Assembly: GCA_021154885.1 (NCBI GenBank)
Contig: JAJKHS010000002.1
Coordinates: 1-38,261, forward strand
Source: Thermoanaerobaculum sp.
Lineage (GTDB): Bacteria > Acidobacteriota > Thermoanaerobaculia > Multivoradales > UBA5704
Reading direction: 5' to 3'
DNA: 38,261 nucleotides
The translations under genes were made by a program, and so were the position numbers. The notes under the pieces were generated by a model. The model saw only the letters and a list, made by a program, of their open reading frames with translations. It did not search any database and was not told the DNA's origin. Position 1 is the first letter of the stretch. Every line of letters begins with the position of its first letter. This document shows, piece after piece, positions 4,707 to 35,492 of the stretch.

Positions 4707-4755
4707 GGACATCATCCCCCAAGATTCGAAAAAAAGTTCCTCGCAGCCACCCTGG

Positions 4756-4850
4756 CCTGGGACCGCCGGCGTCCCGCCGGCTGCTAACTTCTTCTTTTCT
4801 TTAAAAGAAGAAACGGAGTTAGCAGCCGGCGGGACGCCGGCGGTCCCAGG
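4756..4850. repeat. giant perfect inverted repeat (34-bp arms), REP-like
   Basis: Left arm 4756-4789 and right arm 4817-4850 are perfect reverse complements over 34 bp. The loop contains a further 8-bp stem (CTTCTTTT 4791-4798 with AAAAGAAG 4803-4810). The core CGCCGGCGTCCCGCCGGC is shared with the repeats at 29312-29605, so this is one member of a dispersed palindrome family. It lies between the two amidohydrolase genes and would fold strongly in RNA on either strand; it may terminate or protect the upstream transcript. Confidence 0.9.
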
Positions 4851-4876
4851 GGGGCCCACGGGGGCCCCAGGAGGTC

Positions 4877-14782: not shown

Positions 14783-14955
14783 CCCTCATCACCCCGGCCC
14801 TCTTCTCCCAGCCTCCCCCCCGGCCGCCGGGAGAAGAGGGAGTGGTTAGTCTGAAGAAAAGAAGAAGCGGAGCGATCTTAGCCCTCTCTCTCCCGGCGGC
14901 CGGGGGGGAGGCCGGGAGAGAGAGGGTTGGGAGAGTGAGGGTTGGGAGAGTGAGG
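14783..14955. repeat. dispersed GC-rich hairpins and a 15-bp tandem repeat
   Basis: Within the 373-nt gap between otsB and the esterase. (a) 14783-14842: element with a 12-bp stem (14798-14809 with 14829-14840) whose first 27 nt are identical to 33607-33633. (b) 14882-14897 with 14911-14926: a perfect 16-bp stem. (c) a 15-bp unit (GTTGGGAGAGTGAGG) repeated twice in tandem at 14926-14940 and 14941-14955. The element family is a REP-like palindrome. A weak minus-strand ORF (14878-15084) reads through these repeats. From 14956 to 15120 I see no convincing gene. Confidence 0.75.
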
Positions 14956-32389: not shown

Positions 32390-33492
32390 GCGTTCGACCT
32401 CGGCCCCACGGCTTCGGCGGTCGCCCCAGGCGTCGCAGACACCGCTGTCGTCGCAGTCGTCGCGGTGCCGGCAGTATTGGCGGTCTTGGCGGTAGCGGCG
32501 GCCTTGGCCGGGGCGGCCTCCACGCCAACGGCGTCGGCCGGCGGCGCCGCGGCGCGCCGCACGTACTCGCCCCAGCGCAGGTTGTCGCCGCCCTCGCGGT
32601 GCAGCTCGGCCTTGCGGATGGCCATGCTGGCCGCGGTCTCCACCACCCAGGCGAAGTTCTCCTCGCCGATCGACTTCAGCTCGGCGTCCGGCGCGGGGTT
32701 GCAGAAGTCGATGGCATAGGGAACGCCGTCGCGCACCGCCATCTCGACGGTGTTGAAGTCGTAGCCCAGCCAGCGGTTGAGGGCCAGCACGTCGTCATGC
32801 ACCTTCTGGAGCAACGCGGGATCGACCGGCGGGCCGTCCTTGACGTAGCGCAGGTGGTGCGGCTGCCGCGGGTCGTACTGCATGATGCGAATGTCCTGGC
32901 AGTCGAGGCAGTAGCAGCGGAAGTACTCCCGGAAGACGATCTCCTCCTGGAGCATCATCACGAGCTGGCCGGTCTCGTCATAGGCCCTGAAGAATTCGTC
33001 GCGGTTGGTCACCCGGTAGACGTTCTTCCAGCCGCCGCCGGCGAAGGGCTTGAAGAAGGCCGGAAAGCCGATGTAGTCGAAGACCCCTTCCCAGTCCAGG
33101 GGGTAGGCCAGGTTGCGGAACGACTTCGGCCCGGTGTCCGTGGGGTGCTCCTTCGAGGGGAGGAGCACCGTCTTCGGCACGGCGACGCCGATCTTGGTGG
33201 CCAGGGCGTTGTTGAAGAACTTCTCGTCGGCGCTCCACCAGAACGGGTTGTTCACGACCGCCGTGCCGTTCAGGGCAGCGTTCTTCAGGTAGGCGCGGTA
33301 GAAGGGGACGTCCTGGGAGATGCGGTCGACGATCACGGCATAGCCGGAGGGCTCGCCCTGGACGAGCTTGTCGATGCGCACGGGCTCGGCGACGATCCCG
33401 GCGGTCCCGCCGGCGCGCTGCGAGTTGATGCGGTCGCAGAAGGCGTAGGGGAAGGTGTCCTCCTGGCCGAAAAGGATCCCGACTTTCTTCAT
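32386..33492 (-). CDS. ATP-grasp ligase (RimK-like)
   Basis: 368 residues from ATG 33492, with GGGAGG 10 nt upstream (the ORF extends to 33561 without a ribosome site). The N-terminus MKKVGILFGQEDTFPYAFCD is a typical ATP-grasp beginning; central ATP-binding segments include FPAFFKPFAGGGWKNVYRV and MMLQEEIVFREYFRCYCLD; metal ligands are suggested by VEMAVRDGVPYAIDFCNPAP (D and N near the end). It likely joins an amino group to a carboxylate. The last ~45 residues are an Ala/Thr-rich low-complexity tail (KTANTAGTATTATTAVSAT), unusual for the fold. First gene of the ligase operon. Confidence 0.85.
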   Translation of the reverse strand: MKKVGILFGQEDTFPYAFCDRINSQRAGGTAGIVAEPVRIDKLVQGEPSGYAVIVDRISQDVPFYRAYLKNAALNGTAVVNNPFWWSADEKFFNNALATKIGVAVPKTVLLPSKEHPTDTGPKSFRNLAYPLDWEGVFDYIGFPAFFKPFAGGGWKNVYRVTNRDEFFRAYDETGQLVMMLQEEIVFREYFRCYCLDCQDIRIMQYDPRQPHHLRYVKDGPPVDPALLQKVHDDVLALNRWLGYDFNTVEMAVRDGVPYAIDFCNPAPDAELKSIGEENFAWVVETAASMAIRKAELHREGGDNLRWGEYVRRAAAPPADAVGVEAAPAKAAATAKTANTAGTATTATTAVSATPGATAEAVGPRSNA

Positions 33493-33606
33493 AGGGTCAA
33501 TTCCTCCCGATCTGGCTGGGGTAGCGGCAGTGTCAGACACAGCTCCGGCGAACAGTAGCACAGCGGCCCTTCGGGGCGGACCGTCACTGCCGGCCCCTGC
33601 CCAAGA

Positions 33607-33856
33607 CCCTCATCACCCCGGCCCTCTTCTCCCGCCCCCTCGCCACCCCCCTCACCGGGAGAAGAGGGAGAACAGCAAGAAAGGACGACAAGGACAGCAA
33701 GGACAAAAAGGAAGAGGGAGATCAGCAAGAGCGCTCCAACCGGGTTCCCCTCTCCCGGGGATGGGGGTGGGGAGGGGGGCGGGAGAGGGGACAGGGGTGA
33801 GGGCTTCGGGGCGGAAGGCGAGGGGAGAGGAGAGGGTGCGGTGATGAGGGCCCACT
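33607..33856. repeat. dispersed hairpin element and G-rich minisatellite
   Basis: 33607-33670 has a 12-bp stem (33622-33633 with 33657-33668) and begins with the same 27-nt sequence as 14783-14809. It is followed (~33680-33725) by short AAGGAC-type repeats, like those that encode the helicase linker at 8031-8204, and then by a GGGAG-rich stretch (~33745-33840). No gene is supported; ORFs on both strands here are simple-sequence artefacts. Confidence 0.7.
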
Positions 33857-33872
33857 TAAATAGGCCCGGGCA

Positions 33873-33901
33873 TTGACTTTTCCTTCGGGATTCCCAAGAA
33901 T
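33873..33901 (+). promoter_or_regulatory. possible promoter of the structured RNA
   Basis: TTGACT at 33873-33878, 17-nt spacer, AAGAAT at 33896-33901. The -35 is good, the -10 weak. Transcription would start close to 33908, just before the closing stem of the RNA candidate. Confidence 0.4.
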
Positions 33902-33907
33902 ATCTCC

Positions 33908-34194
33908 AGTCCAAGGGTCCACGACCTCCTTTCAGGAGCGGCGTGGCGGCTCCGATAGGGCTTGGGCGGCCCAAGGAGCTGGGCGGGCTGGGACCTGCCA
34001 ATGACGGATTCGCCCAGGAAGGAGGTGGTCCAGTGATCGAAGGTAAACACGGTTCCATGGAGGTGGCGTCCTCGTAAGGGGAATCCTCCACGTGTCCGTG
34101 GCACAGGGAGGTTAGCCCGAGAGGGATAACCCAACGCCACCAACAAGGACCCTTGAGACCCCGGCCCCGAATGGGACCGGGGTCTTTCGTTTTC
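33908..34194 (+). ncRNA. candidate structured non-coding RNA, ~245-280 nt
   Basis: CAAGGGTCC (33912-33920) and GGACCCTTG (34147-34155) form a 9-bp closing stem. Inside are two domains. Domain 1: ACCTCCTT (33924-33931) with AAGGAGGT (34019-34026), enclosing CTTGGG/CCCAAG (33961-33966 with 33970-33975), and CTGGGCG/CGCCCAG (33979-33985 with 34011-34017). Domain 2: GGTGGCGT (34062-34069) with ACGCCACC (34134-34141), enclosing CCACG/CGTGG (34088-34092 with 34097-34101) and GGTTA/TAACC (34110-34114 with 34127-34131) capped by CCC-GAGA-GGG. An intrinsic terminator follows at 34156. No known motif of RNase P, tmRNA, SRP or 6S RNA is evident to me. Confidence 0.6.
34156..34194 (+). terminator. intrinsic terminator of the structured RNA
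   Basis: AGACCCCGG (34156-34164) and CCGGGGTCT (34177-34185) pair perfectly over 9 bp, with extra CCC/GGG pairing in the loop, followed by TTTCGTTTTC. The U-rich tail is on the plus strand only, so it marks plus-strand transcription ending at ~34194, overlapping the 3' end of the convergent DUF5995-like gene. Confidence 0.75.
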
Positions 34195-34966
34195 AGGGGT
34201 TACCGGTCGCCGGCACGATGCTGTTGAGGGCGTCGATGATGGCGGGGACGTCCTTGCTCTCCGTGTCGCGGATGAGGGCGACGGCCGAGGCCACGAGCCC
34301 GACGGGCTGAGCGATCAGCCGGCCCAGGAACTTCACCTTGTCGTCTATGGCTTGAACGGTGAGGGGCCAGGAGGACGGCGGCTGAAGGGAGATGATCTCG
34401 GCATGCAACCAGGCGTCGTCGCGGGCGGCGTCCAGGCTGAAGTTGAGGACTTCGACGGCGTCCTGGCCGCCGATCTTCTCCAGGATGTCCAGCAGAGGCG
34501 AGAACTCGCCGACGACGGCCTCCACCGGCGGCAGGAGGCTGGAGAGAATGGCGTTGATCTTGTTGAAGTCATCGTGGAAACCCTCGAGGGCGAGCCCCTG
34601 GAAGGTTTCGCCGGTCACCACGCCGAGGTCCAGGTTGATGTGGGCGTTGATTCCCACCAGCAGGTCCTGGAGGATGATGAGCCGGCCCGACTGGGTGGAA
34701 TCGAAGGCCACCCGCCAGCTCTGGCTCGGCTTACCGCCGGAGCGGAAAGCGTCATAGGCCGCGAAGTAGCGATCGGCGAACAGGGCGTCGAAGCGGTCCA
34801 TGCGGGGGCCGTTGTCGAAGTACCCGGTTTCGATTCCGCCCTTGACGGTGAGAGTGACCTGCCGGTAGAGAGCCGGGAAATAACCTAGCGGATCGCTCTT
34901 CGCCTTGCAGTCGGCGATGATGCCGTCGAGGATGTGAAGCACGTCGTCGATGTTCTGGGCCGGCAT
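34193..34966 (-). CDS. DUF5995-like protein
   Basis: 257 residues from ATG 34966 with GGAG 5 nt before; the ORF extends further but without a ribosome site. Conserved-looking core: DRFDALFADRYFAAYDAFRS, SWRVAFDSTQSGRLIILQDL and LLVGINAHINLDLGVVTGET, a pattern I associate with DUF5995 family proteins, largely alpha-helical and of unknown function. No signal peptide. Divergent from the YbaK-like gene across 58 nt, and convergent with the RNA candidate. Family recognition is moderately sure; no function can be claimed. Confidence 0.7.
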   Translation of the reverse strand: MPAQNIDDVLHILDGIIADCKAKSDPLGYFPALYRQVTLTVKGGIETGYFDNGPRMDRFDALFADRYFAAYDAFRSGGKPSQSWRVAFDSTQSGRLIILQDLLVGINAHINLDLGVVTGETFQGLALEGFHDDFNKINAILSSLLPPVEAVVGEFSPLLDILEKIGGQDAVEVLNFSLDAARDDAWLHAEIISLQPPSSWPLTVQAIDDKVKFLGRLIAQPVGLVASAVALIRDTESKDVPAIIDALNSIVPATGNP

Positions 34967-35024
34967 GGTGTCTCCTTGGTGGAATGCGGGAGAGCTTAAC
35001 ACCGAGAGCTGATAGGCTTCCGTC

Positions 35025-35492
35025 ATGCACCCCAACGCGGAGAGAGTTCAGGCAGCGCTGAGAGCCCACGGCTGCTCCGGACAGGTCATCGAGCTGGCCG
35101 CCAGCACCCGCACCGCCGAGGAAGCCGCGGCGGCCATCGGTACCACCGTAGCGCAGATCGCCAAGAGCCTGATCTTCCTGGTGGGCGGAGACCCGGTCCT
35201 GGTGATCGCCTCCGGGATCAACCGGGTCTCCCTGTCGAGGTTGACCGACCACGTGGGAACGCTCGCCTTCCGGCCGGACGCCGGCACCGTGAAGCGCCTC
35301 ACGGGCTTCCCCATCGGCGGCATTCCCCCCGTCGGCCATGCCACCTCTCCCCGGGTGCTGATCGACATCGACCTCATCCACCATCGCGAGATCTGGGCCG
35401 CCGCCGGCACGCCGAACGCGGTGTTCCGGACGACGCCAGAGGAGTTGGTGCGGATCACGGGCGGGAAGGTGGTGGAGGTGCGGGAGGAGTAG
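35025..35492 (+). CDS. YbaK/ProX-type aminoacyl-tRNA deacylase
   Basis: 155 residues. Features of the YbaK/prolyl-tRNA deacylase fold: TTVAQIAKSLIFLVGGDPVL with K47 (catalytic Lys position), SGINRVSLSRLTD, and GFPIGGIPPVGHATSPRVLI. Hydrolyses mischarged aminoacyl-tRNA (for example Cys- or Ala-tRNA(Pro)) in the known relatives; the exact substrate is unknown. ATG has no Shine-Dalgarno; a TAGGCT hexamer ends 6 nt upstream, suggesting a leaderless message. Confidence 0.88.
   Translation: MHPNAERVQAALRAHGCSGQVIELAASTRTAEEAAAAIGTTVAQIAKSLIFLVGGDPVLVIASGINRVSLSRLTDHVGTLAFRPDAGTVKRLTGFPIGGIPPVGHATSPRVLIDIDLIHHREIWAAAGTPNAVFRTTPEELVRITGGKVVEVREE

Follow-up and report, generated by a model that had tools for sequence, protein, structure and literature searches.

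A conserved, pseudoknotted RNA gene of Acidobacteriota and other phyla, with a mini-ORF whose translation rather than peptide appears to be kept

What is encoded between positions 33908 and 34194 of the stretch analysed here (the window: 38,261 nt of contig JAJKHS010000002.1, assembly GCA_021154885.1, Thermoanaerobaculum sp.), where an earlier note had proposed an unassigned, independent non-coding RNA, and which of its features are conserved by evolution? Judged from its homologues, this segment is a single-copy RNA gene of about 285 nt, predicted to be independently transcribed, pseudoknotted and conserved. It contains a short open reading frame (ORF), of which the translation event, and not the peptide, looks conserved. 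A literature search that covered its sources in part found no paper describing this RNA.

BLAST recovered parts of the region only, from same-order relatives at 69-78% identity (87% within the genus); 30 of 40 relatives were positive, of which two (G001 and G035) match only the end of the downstream gene, leaving 28. A pattern scan gave at least 80 loci in records labelled, as deposited, Acidobacteriota, Krumholzibacteriia, Eisenbacteria and, for some metagenome-assembled genomes, Gemmatimonadota. Since the pattern demands GGAGGTGRTC, GGAGGTGGCG and TAR, these features are no evidence in the pattern loci. The sets free of this selection are 20 BLAST homologues, 17 of the 18 matches of covariance model R1 (L134, without such an ORF, was dropped; L112, L119, L121 and L131 repeat pattern loci) and 20 matches of model R2. 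Long-form counts refer to 81 non-redundant sequences, namely 61 picked after exclusion of L034, L097, L046, L037 and L134, plus the 20 R2 matches. R1 and R2 detect the RNA in 29 of the 40 relatives and, under strict filters, in 26 of 199 genomes of the phylum (the match in G140, which is L134, is not credible and was not counted). Covariance-model matches were also found in 18 of 38 genomes in the phylum of L031 (labelled Krumholzibacteriia) and in 12 of 39, seven of them strong, in that of L049 (labelled Eisenbacteria). Every positive genome in the relative, phylum and other-phylum searches has one match, and neither plasmid records nor one pattern run over viral contigs gave a match.

The predicted transcription unit is delimited by two features:

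33873 to 33901, plus strand: sigma-70-like promoter TTGACT-17-AAGAAT, found by scanning the window, TTGAC being kept upstream in homologues
34156 to 34193, plus strand: intrinsic terminator, hairpin 34163-34184 followed by a T-rich tail

Both signals had been pointed out in the earlier note. The scan found its TTGACT, with AAGAAT as second hexamer 17 nt on, and one terminator with a T-rich tail, on the plus strand. An upstream TTGAC is present in 40 of 60 homologues (4.0 expected from shuffling; 3 of 56 further upstream) and a terminator lies 3' of the RNA in 56 of 61, while mononucleotide shuffles would give 9.8. Furthermore, no neighbour gene is constant: the largest neighbour cluster accounts for 18 of 80 loci among the matches listed, and orientations vary too. 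Together with the helix covariation given below, these data support the proposal of an independent RNA having its own promoter and terminator.

The non-coding part of that proposal is not supported, nor is the statement that no ORF is present, given the following predicted elements:

34019 to 34031, plus strand: extended Shine-Dalgarno (SD) sequence AAGGAGGUGGUCC, read from the sequence
34033 to 34077, plus strand: mini-ORF of 14 codons, GTG at 34033 to TAA at 34075-34077, MIEGKHGSMEVASS, kept in homologues
34059 to 34063, plus strand: second GGAGG (SD2), within the ORF and 11 nt 5' of the stop, kept in homologues

The sequence AAGGAGGUGGUCC is presumably a nearly full complement of the 3' end of 16S rRNA. 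Each of the 81 long forms has retained a strong SD and, behind it, an ORF of 13-15 codons. Frame 0 is stop-free by the choice of the ORF; what is informative is that an ORF of 11-17 codons could be read in every one of the 81. Starts are GTG in 64, TTG in 15 and ATG in two (79 of 81 non-ATG), and stops are TAG in 52, TAA in 19 and TGA in 10. A stop specific to release factor 1 (UAR only), suspected from the Acidobacteriota, is ruled out by these 10 TGA codons. The length of the ORF is locked to threes and the lengths of the 5' and 3' segments are free modulo 3; two antisense ORFs (33489-34091 and 33856-34146) were set aside because homologue lengths vary freely in this way outside the mini-ORF. 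In 80 of 81 long forms, 10-14 nt separate SD2 from the stop; L133 has UGAGG in place of GGAGG. The distance from the start to this motif is 23, 26 or 29 nt in 80 sequences. It is 27 nt in L176, where GGAGG is shifted by one base and a GGAGG-to-stop spacing of 10 restores the frame. The spacing from SD2 to the last sense codon is 8 nt in 68 of 81, close to that at the start site (7 nt in 71 of 81). Codons 2-6 vary at all three positions (59 distinct 14-codon ORFs). A strict pattern, AAAGGAGGTGRTCCWKTG, occurs in two of 119 genomes of the phylum, both times at loci of this RNA family; it misses the window and most members, so that it indicates the rarity of the full motif elsewhere and does not imply its presence here.

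Short forms of the RNA, which begin just 5' of the SD and lack the 5' domain, were found in the phylum of L049 and in G104. Model R3, built from five of them, matches 15 of the 39 genomes of that phylum, 14 with a short form and one, G280, with its long-form locus, and none of the 39 has long and short forms at separate places. Among the 199 Acidobacteriota its two matches are the long-form loci of G062 and G088; G104 is missed. In the window its sole match at E up to 1 is 34008-34145 (19.8 bits, E 0.005); single loci score 24-34 bits (L114, L067 and L041), and L188 of G104 is weak with 16.1 bits. In each of the 14 short forms, GTG or TTG opens an ORF of 12-17 codons that runs to a stop, and a common GGAGGUGGC is read in two frames: eight end in GGGCS-stop or GGGGS-stop and six in AEVAVR-stop. 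The ORF of L188 reads MDSCLKPREVADA up to its stop; this short form (L188:1286-1528) has more than 100 extra bases between the ORF and the 3' motif. Near another short-form locus, a partial FMN riboswitch match (L184:1-120, minus strand, 32.2 bits) is cut by the locus end. Because codons 2-6 vary, the short forms use two frames and paired changes in helix P9 (below) alter a residue, it is the ORF rather than its peptide that appears to be kept.

The conserved fold proposed from the alignments consists of the following elements, all on the plus strand:

33919 to 33946: hairpin P1, CCACG 33919-33923 with CGUGG 33942-33946
33947 to 33981: P2, 33947-33953 with 33975-33981, enclosing P3; 92% paired, two-sided changes at 6 of 7 pairs
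33958-33960 with 33970-33972, inside P2: P3, weaker, 63% paired
33963 to 34016: pseudoknot PK1, loop UGGGCG 33963-33968 with CGCCCA 34011-34016 directly 5' of the SD, from covariation
33982 to 33999: hairpin P4, 33982-33987 with 33994-33999, six-base loop bearing GGG; 97% paired, two-sided changes at 6 of 6 pairs
33989 to 34133: pseudoknot PK2, P4 loop 33989-33993 with 34129-34133 of the 3' domain; 84% paired
34051 to 34151: P10, ORF codons 34051-34055 with the pre-terminator linker 34147-34151; 69% paired, two-sided changes at 4 of 5 pairs
34062 to 34141: P9, GGUGGCGU of the ORF (34062-34069) with ACGCCACC (34134-34141), closing the 3' domain; 98.5% paired
34070 to 34081: P5, small hairpin whose loop contains the stop codon; 71% paired
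34116 to 34125: P8, CCC-GAGA-GGG hairpin; 76% paired

The architecture is thus that of a predicted 5' domain (P1-P4 and PK1) and a 3' domain (P10, P9, P5 and P8) joined by PK2. About 34 nt between PK1 and P10, comprising AAGGAGGUGGUCC, the GUG and the first codons, have no conserved pairing, and P10 and P9 both take their 5' strand from the second half of the ORF. In alignment A3 (49 diverse sequences out of the 61 picks), 82.5% of the cells of 50 proposed pairs, pseudoknots included, are paired, against 77.7 in shuffles, and 36 pairs show two-sided changes against 22.8. The covariation score is 0.241, against 0.161 in shuffles and 0.054-0.123 when partners are slid by 1-3 columns, and none of 500 shuffles reaches any of five measures. 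Swapping partners never gave a score as high in 300 trials for PK1, P9 and P10 (81 sequences) or for P1 (60 sequences), and did so once in 300 for PK2 (81 sequences). Measured against shuffles, slid partners and swapped partners, covariation supports P1, P2, P4, P9, P10 and both pseudoknots. PK1 is 74% paired in A3 with two-sided changes at 5 of 6 pairs, two columns being shifted in part of the alignment. Printed sequences give PK1 variants UGAGCG/CGCUCA and UAGGCG/CGCCUA, PK2 variants GUGGGA/UCCCAC, GUGGGG/CCCCAC and UGGGU/ACCCA, and P9 variants GGUGGCAG/CUGCCACC, GGUGACGU/ACGUCACC and GGUGGUGU/ACACCACC. Compensated changes in P9 occur in L120, L130, L132, L156, L157 and L186, and the double changes swap an amino acid in three of these (A to V in L156, A to T in L157 and L186). 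P7 is weak in A3 (56-58% paired). P6 (UGGAGG with CCUCCA) was seen by eye in part of the family and left out of the counts.

The fold of 33900-34200 in the window is better than those of dinucleotide shuffles by 4.0 standard deviations, none of 100 shuffles equalling it; that of homologue L041 alone is not significant (z -1.13, 27 of 200 shuffles as good). The 9-bp closing stem C33912-C33920/G34147-G34155 of the earlier note does exist in the minimum-energy fold, but it is not conserved: 89 of 300 partner swaps (60 sequences) score as high, and it was rejected as a family feature. It also competes with the conserved P1 (C33919-C33920) and P10 (34147-34151). The GAGA tetraloop of the earlier note is present at 34119-34122 and caps P8. 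The structure given in that note was half right, and some pairings of the window are missing in most homologues. For instance, CCUCCUUU (33925-33932) pairs with the SD (34019-34025) in the window fold; L009, of the same genus, has a similar CCUCC and most others do not. This pairing may be an SD-masking option at the genus level.

The RNA had also been called unassigned, which is correct for the curated thresholds of Rfam: no family reaches its cut-off in the window, and 19 diverse homologue loci gave one tRNA and nothing else. By these thresholds the window RNA lies outside RF02471 (cut-off 45 bits) and RF01867 (75 bits). However, it is probably a distant relative of the former, Ms_IGR-5, an actinobacterial small RNA (sRNA), with which sequence comparison points to a common ancestry via the short forms. 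With E values up to 1 allowed, the RF02471 model finds nothing in the window; it finds nothing in G000 either, but it matches L181, L183, L184 and L188 from first to last position at 19.4-30.4 bits, all below the cut-off. Its best match in the genome is the short-form locus in G315, G309, G296 and G104; G307 and G290 have a weak best match elsewhere, and G109, like G000, has none. The common order is AAGGAGGUGGUCC, GAGGUGGC, CUAG and a terminator. The window RNA also follows the order of an SD, a short ORF with GAGGUGGC near its stop, a P9-like helix and a terminator, the ORF and helix of Ms_IGR-5 being our reading of its printed consensus and not annotated family features. In that reading the consensus has the same SD, GAGGUGGCUG, CUAG and GGCGAAU motifs, a GGUGGCUGC/GCAGUCACC pair and an ORF of 12 codons, UUG AUU GAU UUA UGG ACA UGU GAG GUG GCU GCC CGC UAG, giving LIDLWTCEVAAR-stop (..EVAAR-stop). 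Its 3'-domain motif GGCGAAUNCC is present or nearly so in the short forms, whereas the window has AUAACCCAACGCC instead and, in addition, the complete 5' domain, including PK1 and PK2. Transcription of Ms_IGR-5 has been reported for Streptomyces lividans and S. avermitilis (PMC8079986, PMC8780764), as have an overlap with an sRNA of M. smegmatis (PMC10454040) and significant ribosomal reads, indicating ribosome protection, in M. abscessus and M. smegmatis (PMC4974804). The parts of these four papers that were covered name no ORF in it, and a literature search of the same partial kind found no stated function.

Two other families were also compared with the window RNA. The CC2171 consensus (RF01867, a Caulobacter sRNA) has the same SD and GUG, and its best genome-wide match is this RNA in four of six genomes (G034, G013, G024 and G002). 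However, scores are 25-32 bits (25.1 in the window) against the cut-off of 75, mostly from the SD and terminator, and G000 and G014 score higher elsewhere. Like transfer-messenger RNA (RF00023), the window RNA has pseudoknots around a short ORF, but it has its own SD and start codon. This identity was rejected: RF00023 has no match in the window, and an ordinary transfer-messenger RNA is found over cut-off at G000:C85 and in all five relatives tested.

What could a conserved translation event do in such an RNA? We propose that it is ribosome-gated, translation of its own mini-ORF opening the fold, a reading that we consider evenly balanced between right and wrong. Ribosomes carry the anti-SD CACCUCC; they initiate less efficiently at GUG or UUG than at AUG, and an SD site inside a reading frame can hold them. 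Ribosome passage and pause are suggested as the working step because a strong SD is combined with a weak start, ORF codons double as helix strands and SD2 has a near-initiation spacing. The 30S subunit would dock strongly and start slowly; the translating ribosome would unzip P10 and P9 and strain PK2; with the stop codon in the A site, SD2 would grip the anti-SD so that the ribosome lingers; and on its release the RNA would refold. The RNA would thus alternate between two states, open while a ribosome holds it and closed when free, and our leading guess for the output is ribosome parking or sensing of translation capacity.

Several observations weigh against this proposal. PK1 and PK2 are not shared by the whole family, the 5' domain being absent from the short forms. 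In PK2, two-sided changes occur only at the two end pairs, one of which is unpaired in 26 of 48 cells, the GGG/CCC core being nearly invariant, and P9 has an uncompensated A.C in L179 and L180 (GGUGACG opposite CGCC). The partner-swap tests ignore relatedness. The RNA was not detected in 11 of the 40 relatives nor, under strict filters, in 173 of the 199 genomes of the phylum. EVA is conserved in most long forms, where the peptide may have a role. Finally, ribosome footprints reportedly cover the large majority of the characterised non-coding RNAs of one species, and coding by such short ORFs is left open in the part of that study covered (PMC4974804); therefore the ribosomal reads on Ms_IGR-5 are weak evidence.

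That last-but-one point belongs to another, unlikely explanation, in which the 5' domain acts like a riboswitch on the synthesis of a functional micropeptide (MxxxxKxGLxEVASS type), a mode of action put forward for cyanobacterial Downstream-peptide RNAs. As described in the part covered of Weinberg et al. 2010 (PMC2864571), in these and in the yfr6 RNAs, too, the gene is a short ORF that lies 3' of a structured region; in the window RNA, by contrast, the ORF belongs to the fold. Downstream-peptide and glutamine riboswitch models gave nothing at cut-off in the window and nothing at E up to 10 in 33850-34250. Besides EVA, the pseudoknot directly 5' of the SD, a compensated synonymous GCG-to-GCA change in L120, L130 and L132, and SEVATS retained in L133 despite the loss of the first G of SD2 all speak for a micropeptide. 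However, EVA turns into EVV, EVT or EVS or disappears in some homologues, codons 2-6 are variable, P9 and P10 engage the 3' half of the ORF, and in eight of the 14 short forms the same bases are read in a different frame.

It is more improbable still that the ORF is incidental to a structured non-coding RNA merely binding the 30S subunit or pairing with the 16S 3' end. The strong structure and the presumed near-full complementarity to that end would suit such an RNA, but the ORF is open in 81 of 81 with a frame-restoring spacing, stops occur before GGAGG in frames +1 and +2 (15 and 63 of 81, respectively), and the short forms keep two different frames open. A leader-peptide attenuator of a neighbouring gene, which would account for a short ORF arranged in series with alternative pairings and a terminator, is very improbable given that the RNA has its own promoter and terminator, that neighbours and orientations differ across the 80 loci listed and that the next gene of the window is convergent. 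A CsrA sponge, for which two conserved GGA motifs could be invoked, is hardly credible, there being just these two, neither in a conserved hairpin loop, unlike in CsrB-type RNAs, and P9 and P10 being left unexplained.

The convergent gene (34193-35035, minus strand) encodes a DUF5995 protein (PF19458) and is followed by an aminoacyl-tRNA editing domain (PF04073, 35025-35492) and a weak HEPN match (PF05168, 35736-36155). On the 5' side of the RNA, a purine/pyrimidine-rich stretch (33597-33840) has inverted CCCUCUCCC/GGGAGAGGG-like segments. In 15 of the 80 loci listed (L067:587-2977, L104, L054, L034 and others), RNase E/G protein relatives are encoded 135-376 nt upstream, on the strand of the RNA in 14 and on the opposite one in L067; both relatives tested matched PF10150. 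This neighbourhood may be chance or a tie to RNA turnover. Sub-threshold microRNA-model matches elsewhere in the window (4755-4851 on both strands and 14797-14927) are probably long GC-rich hairpins.

The RNA described here represents a knotted, single-copy family whose anatomy is clear and which no Rfam model matches above its cut-off; comparison ties this family to Ms_IGR-5, an sRNA of Mycobacterium and Streptomyces. Tentatively, and with more doubt than for the window RNA itself, both may belong to a widespread ribosome-gated class, from Acidobacteriota, Krumholzibacteriia and Eisenbacteria to Actinobacteria, with an ORF of 12-17 codons and arbitrary peptide as its moving part: a near-perfect SD would load the ribosome, the knotted fold would be opened, and a second SD would clamp the ribosome at the stop, parking ribosomes or reporting translation capacity. 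The conserved, apparently peptide-indifferent mini-ORF with its two SD-like sites offers a direct test of whether translation itself is the working step of a small RNA. If translation does matter more than the peptide, this would be an unrecognised kind of ribosome-engaging RNA.
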